Made by a program: the position numbers and the translations under genes | The notes under the pieces: model-generated | Told to the model about the DNA's origin: nothing | The model's database searches: none | The model's input: the letters and a program-made list of their open reading frames with translations, nothing else | From: Pseudogulbenkiania ferrooxidans 2002 | GTDB taxonomy: Bacteria; Pseudomonadota; Gammaproteobacteria; Burkholderiales; Chromobacteriaceae | Length of the DNA stretch: 64,000 nt | NCBI RefSeq assembly: GCF_000174355.1 | Contig: NZ_ACIS01000001.1 | Span: forward strand, 62,001-126,000 | Reading direction: 5' to 3' | Part shown: one piece after another, positions 5,887-11,056 of the stretch | Position numbering within the stretch: the stretch's first letter is position 1 | Layout: every line of letters starts with the position of its first letter

Positions 5887-6945
5887 ATGAACCGCCTGCA
5901 AGCCATCCGTCCCTTCGGCCAACGTATCTGGCTGGACAACCTGTCGCGTGAACTGCTGGCCTCCGGCACGCTCGCGCGCCTGGTGGAGGAAGACGGCATC
6001 GCCGGCGTGACCTCCAACCCGACCATCTTCCACAAGGCCATCGCCAGCGACCCGCGCTATCAGGAAGACCTGGCCGCACTGAAACTGCGCGCGCTGGACG
6101 CCGAGCAGTGCTACGAGGCGCTGGTGATCCCGGACATCCAGGCCGCCTGCGACCTGTTGGCCCCGCAGTACCGCGCCAGCGCCGGCGACGACGGCTACGT
6201 CAGCCTGGAAGTGTCGCCGCTGTTGGCCAACGATGCCGCCGGCACTCTGGCCGCGGCGCGCCGGCTGTGGCAGGCGGTCGCTCGTCCCAACCTGATGATC
6301 AAGATTCCGGCCACCGCCGCCGGGGTGGAGGCATTGCGCACCCTGACCCGCGAGGGCGTCAACGTCAACATTACGCTGCTGTTCAGCCTGCCCCAGGTCG
6401 AGGCAGTGTGGGACGGCTACCTCGCCGGCCTGCAGCAGCGCCTGGAGGACGGCAACGACGTCAAGCCGGTCAAGGCGGTGGCGAGCTTCTTCCTGTCGCG
6501 CGTCGACAGCCTGCTCGATCCGCAGCTGGCACCAGAGCTGCAGGGCAAGGTCGCGGTGGCGCTGGCCAAGGCCGCGTACGCGCGCTACCGCCAGCGTTTC
6601 CACGGCGCCGAATTCGCCGCGCTGCGCGCCGCCGGGGCACGCCCGCAGTACCTGTTGTGGGCCAGCACCGGGACCAAGAATGCGGCCTACTCCGACGTGC
6701 TGTACGTCGCCAGCCTGATCGGCCAGGAAACCGTCAACACCGTACCGGACGCCACCCTGGCGGCGTTCCGCGACCACGGCGCCGCCGCCGAGACCCTGCC
6801 GCACGGGCTGGAGGAAGCGATGACGGTGTTGCACCGCGTCGGCGCTTCCGGTATCGACCTTGTCGCCGTCGGCGACAAGCTGCAGCAGGACGGTCTCAAG
6901 CTGTTCGTCGAGTCGTATCAGGCGCTGCTGGAGCTGACAGCCTGA
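5887..6945 (+). CDS. tal: Transaldolase
   Basis: The 352-residue cytoplasmic enzyme of the non-oxidative pentose phosphate pathway moves a dihydroxyacetone unit between sugar phosphates. The catalytic Lys is in NLMIKIPATAAG (about residue 140). GVTSNPTIFHKAI (about 39-51) and LLWASTGTKN (about 257-266) are class signatures. The length fits the longer TalB-like/Tal2 group common in bacteria outside the enterics. The ATG at 5887 has a GGGAAG ribosome site; an upstream ATG at 5836 is less likely. It stands alone between phoR and an intergenic element, and a strong terminator follows at 7111-7140. Confidence 0.92.
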   Translation: MNRLQAIRPFGQRIWLDNLSRELLASGTLARLVEEDGIAGVTSNPTIFHKAIASDPRYQEDLAALKLRALDAEQCYEALVIPDIQAACDLLAPQYRASAGDDGYVSLEVSPLLANDAAGTLAAARRLWQAVARPNLMIKIPATAAGVEALRTLTREGVNVNITLLFSLPQVEAVWDGYLAGLQQRLEDGNDVKPVKAVASFFLSRVDSLLDPQLAPELQGKVAVALAKAAYARYRQRFHGAEFAALRAAGARPQYLLWASTGTKNAAYSDVLYVASLIGQETVNTVPDATLAAFRDHGAAAETLPHGLEEAMTVLHRVGASGIDLVAVGDKLQQDGLKLFVESYQALLELTA

Positions 6946-7164: not shown

Positions 7165-7695
7165 TCAGCCCGGTTGCTGCCGCCGCGCCGCCATGCGCTG
7201 CCCGGCCTGGCGCAGCTCCTCCTCGCTCAGGGTGGCGGCAACCAGCGGGAACAGCCAGTCCTCCTCCAGCTGGGCGTGGCTGCGGTAATGCACCGTGAAG
7301 GCGTGGATCGCTTCGGCGTCGACCCGCGCCGCCGTACCGTCCTGCAGCGCCAGCAGTTGCTTCCGCAGCGCCTGCCAGCGTTGGCCGAACATGACGTGAT
7401 CGGCCGCCAGCCGCGCCAGCGGCGTGTCGGTGTCGGGCAGGCGCTGGCGCAATAGCGGGAACAGCTCGTCTTCCTCGTCGGCGTGGTGCGCCGGGCCGGC
7501 CACGTCGAAGTAGCGCAGGATACCCGCCACCGAACTCTGCAGTGCCGGGGTGACACCCTGTGCGGCGAGATAGCCGGGCAGCTTGTCGAGCAGGCTGCAG
7601 AAGTGGCGCACCTTGTCGTGGCAGGCGCCGAGCATCTCCAGCGGCGCGTCGAAGCTGGGGGCGGCATTCTGGCCGAGATTGTCGAGTCGCAGCAT
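7165..7695 (-). CDS. Hemerythrin (HHE cation-binding) domain protein
   Basis: The 176-residue protein looks like a four-helix HHE domain. The His and Glu ligands are at the expected places: ACHDKVRHFC (about 24-33), AGPAHHADEEDELFP (about 68-82), LAADHVMF (about 95-102) and HYRSHAQLEEDWLFP (about 136-150). Such domains bind a di-iron centre and serve in oxygen or nitric oxide sensing, iron handling or stress repair. The ATG at 7695 has an AGGAAC ribosome site. It converges on tal. Its exact role is unknown. Confidence 0.82.
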   Translation of the reverse strand: MLRLDNLGQNAAPSFDAPLEMLGACHDKVRHFCSLLDKLPGYLAAQGVTPALQSSVAGILRYFDVAGPAHHADEEDELFPLLRQRLPDTDTPLARLAADHVMFGQRWQALRKQLLALQDGTAARVDAEAIHAFTVHYRSHAQLEEDWLFPLVAATLSEEELRQAGQRMAARRQQPG

Positions 7696-7872: not shown

Positions 7873-8907
7873 ATGGATCAACCGTTCGTTGTGCGCGCCC
7901 CCGATCTGGCCGAGCCGGGCCTGGCCGAAGCCGCGTTTCGCCTGCAGCTGGCGGCCCACCGCGTGGAACTGGACTGGCTGGGCGAACCGCCCGACCTGCC
8001 GCTGCTGTGGGATAGCCCGGCGGCTGTGACGGCCTGCCCCTATCGTCTGCTCGGCGCGTTCGAGGGCACGGCGCTGCGCGGTCTGCTGGTGTACGAGGAG
8101 GAGAGCGATACGGTGCATATCCAGCGTACCGTGGTCGATCCCGCCCATCTCGGCCAGGGCTGGGGCTACCGCCTGGTCAATGCGCTGCTGGCGCTCGCGC
8201 CGCGCGTCACGGTGGACACCGCCGAGGCCAACGCGGCGGCACTGCGCCTCTACGGCAAGGCCGGCTTCGTGCCGGAGCAGCGCTGGCACTCGCCGGGCGG
8301 GCTGGCGCTATGGCGGCTGGGCTACCGCCGTCCCCCCGACGAGGCGGTGCTGCCGGCGCTGTCGCTCGACGCCGCCGGCTGGGTGCCGGAGGCGCGCCGC
8401 TGTCCCTCGCCCAACCGCGACGCGCGCGCCGCCGGCGTGGCGACGGAATTGCTGGTGGTGCACAACATCAGCCTGCCGCCGTACCGCTACGGCGGTCCGG
8501 GCGTGGAGCAGCTGTTCACCAACACGCTCGACCCTGCCGCGCATCCCTACTACGCCACCATCCACCACTTGCGCGTCTCGGCGCATTTCTTCATCCGCCG
8601 CGACGGCGAGCTGGTGCAGTTCGTGCCGGTGACCGAGCGCGCCTGGCACGCCGGGGTGTCGAGCTGGCATGGGCGCGAGCGTTGCAACGATTTCTCGCTC
8701 GGGGTGGAACTGGAGGGCTGCGACTTCGAGCCGTTTGCCGACGCCCAGTACCGTACCCTGATCGCGCTGGCGCGCCTGCTCAAGCAACAACTGGGGCTGA
8801 CCGGCATGACCGGCCACGAACACATCGCGCCGGGGCGCAAGACCGATCCCGGCCCGTTCTTCGACTGGGCGCGGCTGAGACGACTGGTGGACCTGCCGGC
8901 CGAGTGA
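7873..8907 (+). CDS. GNAT acetyltransferase fused to AmpD-type N-acetylmuramoyl-L-alanine amidase
   Basis: A single uninterrupted 344-residue frame has two parts. Residues about 1-150 are a GNAT domain: VVDPAHLGQGWGYRLVN carries the acetyl-CoA loop and AALRLYGKAGF is the usual last helix. Residues about 160-344 match AmpD in full, with zinc ligands in VVHNISLPP, AWHAG and the GHEHIAPGRKTDPGP loop. AmpD removes the peptide from 1,6-anhydroMurNAc-peptides in cytoplasmic wall recycling and keeps AmpR-controlled beta-lactamase off. An acetyltransferase joined to it is unusual. A GTG at 8347 could start AmpD alone, but its ribosome site is weak. The start ATG at 7873 has no strong Shine-Dalgarno. 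Confidence 0.85.
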   Translation: MDQPFVVRAPDLAEPGLAEAAFRLQLAAHRVELDWLGEPPDLPLLWDSPAAVTACPYRLLGAFEGTALRGLLVYEEESDTVHIQRTVVDPAHLGQGWGYRLVNALLALAPRVTVDTAEANAAALRLYGKAGFVPEQRWHSPGGLALWRLGYRRPPDEAVLPALSLDAAGWVPEARRCPSPNRDARAAGVATELLVVHNISLPPYRYGGPGVEQLFTNTLDPAAHPYYATIHHLRVSAHFFIRRDGELVQFVPVTERAWHAGVSSWHGRERCNDFSLGVELEGCDFEPFADAQYRTLIALARLLKQQLGLTGMTGHEHIAPGRKTDPGPFFDWARLRRLVDLPAE

Positions 8908-9190: not shown

Positions 9191-11056
9191 CTACAGCTCG
9201 ATCTGCGCACCCAGCTCCACCACGCGGTTGGTCGGGATGTGGAAGAAGTCGGTGGCCCTCAGCGCGTTCTTGCTCATCCACACGAACAGCTGCTCGCGCC
9301 AGCGCGCCATGCCCGGACGCGCGGTGGACAGCAAGGTTTCGCGCGACAGGAAGAACGAGGTATCCATCACCTCGAATTCGAGGCCCTGCTGGGCGCACAG
9401 ATCGAGGATTTCCTGCACGTTCGGCGTTTCCTGGAAGCCGTAGAACGCCTCGACCTGCCAGAACGAATTGGACAGGCGGGTGATGCGTACCCGCTCCGCC
9501 GGTGCCACGTAGGGCACGTCCTCGCCTTGCATTGTCAGCAACACGATGCGTTCATGCAGCACCTTGTTGTGTTTCAGGTTGTGCAGCAGGGCGTGAGGGA
9601 CGCCCTGCAGCGTGCTGGTCAGGAACACCGCGGTGCCCTGCACCCGGCTGGGCGGGAACGACTCCATGTTCTCGACGAAGCTGTCGAGCGGGATGGCGTG
9701 TTCGGTCAGTCGCTCGACCAGGATCTCGCGGCCGCGCTTCCAGGTTGCCATCAGCGTGAAGACCGCGAGCCCGATCAACAGCGGCAGCCAGCCGCCGGAG
9801 AACAGCTTGAGCGCGTTGGCACTGAAGAAGCCGGTGTCGATCACCAGGAAGAATGAGGTCACCGCCAGCGCCAGCGGCTGCGGCCAGCCCCAGTTGGCGC
9901 GCGCCACGATATAGGCCAGTAGCGTGGTGATCAGCATGGTGCCGGTCACCGCGATGCCGTAAGCGGCAGCCAGGTTGCCGGACGATTTGAACGCCAGCAC
10001 CACCACCATCACCGCGACCAGCAGCCCCCAGTTCACGAACGGCATGTAGATCTGGCCGATCTCCTTGGCCGAGGTGTGCAGGATGCCCATGCGCGGGCAG
10101 TAGCCCAGCTGGATCGCCTGGCGCGTCAGCGAGTAGGCGCCGGAGATCACCGCCTGCGAAGCAATCACGGTGGCCAGCGTGGCGAGGATGATCAGCGGCA
10201 TCAGCGCCCAGGACGGGGCCAGCAGGTAGAACGGGTTGCGGATCGCCGACGGGTCCGTCATCAGCAGGGCGCCCTGGCCGAAGTAGTTGAGCAGCAGCGC
10301 CGGCAGCACCAGGTTGAACCAGGCCAGGCGGATCGGCTTCTTGCCGAAATGCCCCATGTCGGCGTACAGCGCCTCGGCCCCGGTCAGCGCCAGCACCACC
10401 GCGCCCAGCGCCAGGAAGGCGTCGTGACCGTGTTTGACCAGGAAGTCGAAGGCATACAGGGGGTTGAGCGCGGCCAGTACCTGGGGCGTCGCGGCGATCT
10501 GCATCAGGCCCAGCACGCCCAGCGTACCGAACCACAGCAGCATGACCGGTCCGAACAGCATGCCGACGCTGGCGGTGCCGAAGCGCTGGATCAGGAACAG
10601 CGCCATCAGCACCACGATCGACATTGGCAGCACGTAGGCTTCCAGCTCCGGCTTGATCACCTCCAGACCCTCGGCGGCGGACAGTACCGAAATCGCCGGG
10701 GTGATGATGGCATCACCGTAGAACAGCGCGGCGCCGAACAGCCCGAGCACCACGACCAGGCCGCGGCGCTTGCCCGAGGCGGCCTGACGGGCCAGCGCCA
10801 TTAGCGACATGATGCCGCCCTCGCCGCGGTTGTCGGCCTTGAGGATGAAGATCACGTACTTGAGCGTCACCACGAACAGCAGCGACCAGAAAATCATCGA
10901 CAGGATGCCGAGTACGTTGCCCGGGGTAACCGGCAAGCCGTGACCGGCGAAACATTCTTTAAGGGTATAGAGCGGACTGGTGCCGATGTCGCCGTACACC
11001 ACGCCCAGTGCGGCGAGCGTGATGCCCGCCAGCGCCTGCTTGCTGTGTGCTTGCAT
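9191..11056 (-). CDS. kup: Low-affinity potassium transport protein Kup
   Basis: The 621-residue protein begins with the family hallmark [17 protein letters not shown] (about residues 19-35), has about twelve membrane helices up to residue ~440, and ends with a soluble cytoplasmic tail. Kup proteins take up potassium with protons across the inner membrane. The length matches the usual 620-630. The ATG at 11056 is chosen because it gives a standard N-terminus; the frame is open further upstream but without family resemblance. A terminator follows at 9143-9169. It is divergent from proS. Confidence 0.92.

Follow-up and report, generated by a model that had tools for sequence, protein, structure and literature searches.

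A GNAT acetyltransferase domain fused to the AmpD amidase in Pseudogulbenkiania ferrooxidans 2002 and in most of the Chromobacteriaceae

It was confirmed that a GNAT acetyltransferase domain followed by a full AmpD amidase forms a single chain in the window, i.e. the whole 64,000-nucleotide stretch of Pseudogulbenkiania ferrooxidans 2002 DNA that was analyzed. The translation of positions 7873-8907 gave 344 residues with zero internal stops (Table 1). The uninterrupted GNAT-AmpD frame noted in the first-pass annotation was borne out by the translation and by the Pfam and NCBIfam matches, so the architecture held, as did the suggestion that the acetyltransferase is retained. Acetylation of a recycled muropeptide or amino sugar, which was suggested there too, is kept as a candidate role. 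The same annotation knew of no described example, which is outdated: the fusion is not new, as AmpD1 of Chromobacterium violaceum was described in 2025 in PMC12323641, and no other paper recognisably on this architecture was found among the open-licence papers listed. The distribution of the fusion, its likely single origin, its repeated loss and the residues specific to the fused form are added here to that description. Leaving the substrate aside, it is quite probable that the protein is a cytosolic two-domain enzyme combining AmpD with an active RimI-like GNAT, which would have been joined a single time, retuned at its acceptor side and kept as an accessory.

Table 1. Features of the fusion gene and its neighbours (positions in the window)
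Feature	Position	Strand	Basis
Transaldolase gene, left neighbour	5887..6945	+	NCBIfam PRK03343
Hemerythrin-domain gene, divergent left neighbour	7165..7686	-	Pfam PF01814
GNAT-AmpD fusion gene, 344 aa and stop	7873..8907	+	Open frame, Pfam and NCBIfam matches
Kup-type potassium transporter gene, right neighbour	9191..11056	-	Pfam PF02705, PF22776
GNAT acetyltransferase domain, residues 1-152	7873..8328	+	Pfam PF00583; model compared with GNAT folds
Interdomain linker, residues 153-166	8329..8370	+	Length and sequence vary in alignment
AmpD amidase domain, residues 167-344	8371..8904	+	NCBIfam AmpD equivalog; structure match 2y28
R85 to L101, presumed acetyl-CoA pyrophosphate loop region	8125..8175	+	Residue conservation; usual loop role in GNATs
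N120 to Y127	8230..8253	+	Conservation in fused and free forms; usual roles in GNATs
His197, equivalent of His34 of C. freundii AmpD	8461..8463	+	Alignment; invariant in 28/28
His315, Lys323, Asp325, equivalents of His154, Lys162, Asp164	8815..8847	+	Alignment; invariant in 28/28
GTG codon 159, suspected internal start, rejected	8347..8349	+	Same-genus comparison
Trp35 codon, same number as the W35* site of three ceftazidime-resistant C. violaceum isolates	7975..7977	+	Alignment; PMC12323641 Table 3

A chance read-through was excluded because the GNAT part was conserved, sharing 39-89% identity with 16 relatives and showing dN/dS values of 0.02-0.43 in 14 close pairs. In all 28 aligned sequences, that of the window included, no stop separated the N-terminal part from AmpD (alignment A1, which holds 28 of the first 30 loci; the free AmpD sequences of L029 and L030 were omitted). 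The ATG at 7873 aligned with the ATG starts of the relatives. An AGGAGG-like site preceded some of those, e.g. in L013 and L015, the former having a good ribosome site, CAGGAGGTTGG, ahead of the aligned ATG, and no obvious ribosome site was seen ahead of 7873 in the window sequence itself.

It is hardly conceivable that two separate proteins are made, with AmpD translated from the GTG at 8347. This codon is present in the genome of the window, and polarity on a coupled internal start could formally underlie the truncation phenotypes of C. violaceum. However, neither of the two congeners (G001 and G002) has a start codon at the corresponding position, and in PMC12323641 the W35* and frameshift mutations of C. 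violaceum accompany the AmpD1-loss phenotype. Separate genes in close relatives, together with a start at 8347, had been named as evidence against the fusion; no such start was found in the congeners, and no GNAT of this kind was found around ampD in the fetched stretches of all nine non-fused family genomes. Since the W35* mutants of C. violaceum behave as AmpD1-deficient, the data of PMC12323641 support the whole chain as one translation unit. Sequence comparison and these published genetics in a relative showed that translation begins at 7873 and yields the complete chain.

According to PMC12323641, AmpD1 carries an N-terminal GNAT and a C-terminal AMI_2 domain in one chain, an architecture which was overlooked in the original annotation and was called unique, with its distribution given as "data not shown". 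The protein was predicted to be cytoplasmic. It controls beta-lactamase expression, and its deletion raised the expression of two beta-lactamases. Mutations in ampD1 were found in 11 of 13 ceftazidime-resistant isolates, namely W35* in three, W166* in one, a frameshift at nt 406-416 in one and missense changes in six (four sites). The W35* isolates and the frameshift were among the ampD1 mutants that overexpressed both beta-lactamases, and both lesions lie inside the GNAT part. Every ampD1 mutant was rescued by ampD1 except SM59, a W35* isolate. The protein of the window resembles AmpD1 (CV_0566, Q7P0K1) in domain order and family, and the Chromobacterium-group rows of the alignment (L011 and L012) have Trp at the positions that the paper numbers W35 and W166. 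The two systems differ in that the loss of AmpD1 raises two beta-lactamases, whereas no class C beta-lactamase was found in the genome of the window at E 1e-60. How much of the muropeptides that signal cell-wall damage is present depends on AmpD, and in C. violaceum the loss of such a fusion raises beta-lactamase expression.

Judged by its sequence, the C-terminal domain was established as a canonical zinc amidase AmpD. Pfam Amidase_2 matched residues 212-328 (E 3.7e-29), and the NCBIfam AmpD equivalog PRK11789 matched residues 165-340 with 267.5 bits, above its cut-off of 143. An AlphaFold2 model of the chain, built from 28 sequences, reached a mean pLDDT of 87.0 and a pTM of 0.84. In VIA-align its residues 163-340 matched Citrobacter freundii AmpD (2y28) with Z 27.2 and an rmsd of 1.6 Å over 177 aligned residues at 62% identity, and the C. 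freundii chain aligned over residues 168-340. The residues H197, E279, H315, K323 and D325 aligned with H34, E116, H154, K162 and D164 of C. freundii AmpD (numbered by hand) and were invariant in 28/28 aligned sequences. We take this set to be the zinc ligands, H34 among them, and the catalytic Glu and Lys. The C. freundii enzyme (1j3g, 2y28) shares these active-site residues but is free-standing and has no GNAT. The AmpD half should thus work like any AmpD, and it would cleave the bond between anhydro-MurNAc and L-Ala of imported muropeptides in the cytosol. A second, weaker Amidase_2 match (51.1 bits) was noted elsewhere in the genome of the window, at C15:200740-201120.

The N-terminal half was matched by Pfam Acetyltransf_1 (PF00583) at residues 56-132 with E 3.1e-10 and 40.8 bits, above the cut-off of 20.7. 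In VIA-align, the N-terminal part of the model matched 3f0a over residues 3-153 (Z 19.1, rmsd 2.2 Å, 142 aligned) and RimI 2cnm over residues 4-158 (Z 17.7, rmsd 2.9 Å, 138 aligned). The GNAT fold is shared with RimI, YjaB and other small GNATs (2cnm, 5isv, 2kcw and 3f0a) at Z 16.3-19.1, but identity was only 13-21%, and a substrate is not transferable from them.

The residues of 33 fused GNATs were compared with those of 13 free relatives (L027, L028, L091, L093, L095 and L096 were omitted). R85, V88, P90, G96, R100 and L101 were present in 33/33 non-degenerate fused GNATs and lie in a loop that presumably holds the acetyl-CoA pyrophosphate. N120 and Y127, taken by us to belong to a stretch that contacts CoA and supplies the general acid, were kept in 33/33 fused and 13/13 free sequences; V88, P90 and G96, like these two, occurred in 12 or 13 of the 13 free relatives. 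The usual acetyl-CoA motif of GNATs is R/Q-x-x-G-x-G/A. Its G-x-G/A portion was kept in the non-degenerate aligned rows, but its first position, R/Q by the motif, was Leu in the protein of the window. Most relatives carried Leu, Phe or His there, and L020, L025 and L026 carried Gln.

Ten residues were typical of the fused form (F5, H29, W35, W46, A62, F63, H82, W97, A122 and R137). Among the fused sequences H29 was found in 31/33, W35 in 32/33, W46 in 33/33 and H82 in 30/33, while the 13 free relatives had Tyr at 29 in 13/13, Leu at 35 in 11/13, variable residues at 46 and Asp at 82 in 6/13. In the AlphaFold2 model H29, W35, W46 and H82 map to helix 1, to the loop that follows and to strand 4, which we assume from general GNAT anatomy to be the acceptor side. 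It was proposed that the GNAT may have been retuned there after the joining, at H29, W35, W46 and H82.

Selection on the two halves was compared by dN/dS. The GNAT values were 0.22-0.25 in the genus of the window (3 pairs), 0.02-0.14 in g6 (4 pairs), 0.04-0.15 in g7 (3 pairs), 0.23-0.43 in g4 (3 pairs) and 0.35 in g2 (1 pair), i.e. below 0.45 in 14/14 close pairs. Sixteen pairs were run; two with decayed g8 copies were saturated and left uncounted (GNAT 0.28 and 0.63). Over the same 14 pairs the AmpD values were 0.02-0.23 and stayed below those of GNAT in 13/14, therefore the constraint on GNAT was weaker. Because of the low dN/dS and the kept CoA-site and catalytic-type residues, and yet several losses or decays while AmpD stayed, the GNAT half is probably an active but dispensable accessory acetyltransferase. 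It would work as an acetyl-CoA-dependent N-acetyltransferase of RimI-like fold, and its activity would not be needed by AmpD, which is free in 9/61 family genomes and persists beside a decayed GNAT in G032 and G036.

A regulatory or structural appendage without catalysis was regarded as rather improbable. The altered first position of the CoA motif and the loss of catalytic-type residues in G032 and G036 point towards it. So does the published screen: in PMC12323641 all six missense isolates (four sites) had their changes in the amidase half and none in the GNAT half, so that the GNAT lesions selected there were truncating ones only, which with four sites is no more than a hint. Such an appendage is contradicted by N120 and Y127 in all 33 non-degenerate fused sequences and by GNAT dN/dS values well below 1.

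The fusion was found, by match coverage, in 52 of the 61 Chromobacteriaceae genomes and in 8 of 10 genera (in g8 only in part), so that the suggested search for the domain pair in related genomes did recover it. NCBI places Pseudogulbenkiania, Chromobacterium, Aquitalea and Paludibacterium all in this family. In 50/61 genomes the match spanned from residue 18 or earlier to residue 335 or later. In G032 and G036 the frame was open with a degenerate N-terminal part and N120 and Y127 were lost; since the GNAT of the window alone as the query gave no match in G036 at 1e-6, the remnant there rests on the alignment. At both loci (L028 in G032, L027 in G036) the GNAT was decayed, the AmpD residues were intact and the frame remained open into AmpD, perhaps an intermediate on the way to GNAT loss. 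AmpD stood alone in nine genomes: G004 and G013 (g3), G010, G018, G023 and G028 (g9), and G009, G017 and G027 (g8). In other families of the order the whole-protein match began at residue 126 or later in 24/24 genomes. A GNAT profile (A2, made of 17 of the 28 A1 sequences without the decayed L027 and L028) matched at 1e-12 in at least 27 of 399 order genomes and at least 5 of 398 phylum genomes, the two samples overlapping; the best nine candidates per genome were scored at first look and weak relatives may be missed. Among the matches listed, in a sample and not a census, AmpD was the partner in Chromobacteriaceae only, i.e. the fusion was restricted to bacteria close to C. violaceum in the sampled order and phylum genomes.

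The surroundings of ampD were compared in the fetched stretches of 29 genomes (20 fused, 9 free). In 29/29, fused or not, ampD was preceded by the divergently oriented hemerythrin gene; transaldolase lay further upstream in 28/29, and kup downstream in 22/29 (18/20 fused and 4/9 free). The GNAT query of the window matched at the ampD locus in 19/20 fused and 0/9 free genomes. In G004 (L110), a globin-like frame, recognised by eye, lies between hemerythrin and ampD, at the place of the GNAT of the fused relatives.

A tree of four genes (transaldolase, Kup, AmpD and ProS) was built for 32 genomes, namely 29 of the 61 family genomes and three outgroups, several of them with missing genes. No major branch of the family lacked fused species, and the g8 group, which branches first, contained them too. 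The free-AmpD genomes fell into three groups apart from one another (g3, g9 and a subclade of g8); five changes were needed in total, outgroups counted. The simplest reading of this tree would be one GNAT gain followed by three losses inside the family. As the outgroups were long and did not fall on one side of a branch, the root is unsure, and gain-then-loss is put forward as the simplest course. In a GNAT tree from which L027, L028 and L095 were left out, 17 fused GNATs formed one clade against 16 free ones with support of 99/97, which suggests a likely single origin of the fusion; the GNAT would have joined ampD once, in the family ancestor. Two further ideas were rejected. The GNAT has not simply moved in a free-AmpD species, as the free GNAT found in G009 does not belong to the fused clade, and an ancestral site between map and glnD was not recovered, neither GNAT nor glnD lying within 1.5 kb of map in 10/10 family genomes.

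It was estimated with about even chances that the GNAT is active on a substrate with no relation to peptidoglycan; the fusion would then give joint expression only and be an accident of a roaming module. The GNAT subfamily indeed looks like such a module. In family f22 a free GNAT adjoins glnD in 9/9 loci (L172-L174, L176-L180 and L182) and has map, the methionine aminopeptidase gene, on its other side in eight; in the ninth locus the contig starts 764 bases before the GNAT. These neighbours were named by family search for map and glnD of L178 and map of L172, and by similarity to these in the other loci. The free GNATs of f22 and a GNAT joined to PncC in G049 belong to the same subfamily by profile (71-122 bits), but they are not joined to AmpD and several of their residues consistently differ. 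Since the free relatives adjoin unrelated genes, a substrate unrelated to peptidoglycan is favoured. Three separate groups that keep AmpD without GNAT, and the absence of any link with Mpl, AnmK or class C beta-lactamase, agree with this. What speaks against it is the spread of the fusion over 52/61 genomes and 8/10 genera, the fused-specific residues, and one free relative that follows ddl after a murA-like gene. An acetyltransferase that stays on AmpD in most of the family suggests that a so far undescribed chemical step lies close to peptidoglycan recycling.

The most interesting substrate candidate is the alpha-amine of L-Ala in the tripeptide or tetrapeptide released by AmpD, an amine which the GNAT may acetylate in place; this is an unproven guess and was held to be unlikely. 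The rest of the probability goes to another small amine or a protein N-terminus. Capping is weakly suggested by RimI, an alanine N-acetyltransferase, among the close folds and by the related free GNAT beside methionine aminopeptidase, which likewise exposes an amine. Such amine-exposing neighbours (map, pepN and AmpD) are suggestive, if few and mixed. RimI is, however, one of many GNAT folds at similar Z. Repeated loss would be odd for a GNAT whose substrate is the product of AmpD itself. Moreover, Mpl needs the L-Ala amine free, so that Mpl, matched in 61/61 genomes, could not reuse a capped peptide. A fuller version, in which the GNAT would N-acetylate the freed amine, part of the peptide pool would leave reuse and the signal read by the muropeptide sensors would change, was considered rather improbable.

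Mpl and AnmK matches were found in all 61 family genomes (each split over two frames in G011, and only part of AnmK in G036), and AmpG was present in the genome of the window; therefore these recycling steps occur both where the GNAT is present and where it is lacking, and a fusion compensating for missing recycling genes was rejected. A class C beta-lactamase at E 1e-60 occurred in 18/61 genomes, and with 17/52 fused and 1/9 free genomes, and none found in that of the window, a tie of the fusion to this enzyme was rejected too. In its distribution the fusion follows none of Mpl, AnmK and class C beta-lactamase.

Re-acetylation of an amino sugar in the recycling pool (de-N-acetylated anhydro-muramic acid or glucosamine) was judged very improbable. 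The Trp and His residues that mark the fused form, located in helix 1, directly behind it and in strand 4, are compatible with sugar stacking, but their acceptor-side placement was derived from the alignment and predicted secondary structure. No report of an amino-sugar substrate for such a GNAT was found in the open-licence literature.

Some other settings of the subfamily were recorded. In G049 (L186:4434-5456, minus strand) the GNAT relative forms the C-terminus of a PncC/CinA-type nicotinamide-nucleotide amidase in a frame of 341 aa, with both Pfam domains above cut-off. In G009 (L187:5891-8794, minus strand) a murA-like gene, ddl and the free GNAT stand in a run with a gap of 6 bases between ddl and GNAT, so that this relative adjoins genes for cell-wall precursors; the next frame resembles NUDIX but scored below its NCBIfam cut-off. 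A weak GNAT relative follows pepN in G292, another relative follows an O-succinylhomoserine sulfhydrylase gene in G091, and further free relatives occur in G317, G677 and G769.
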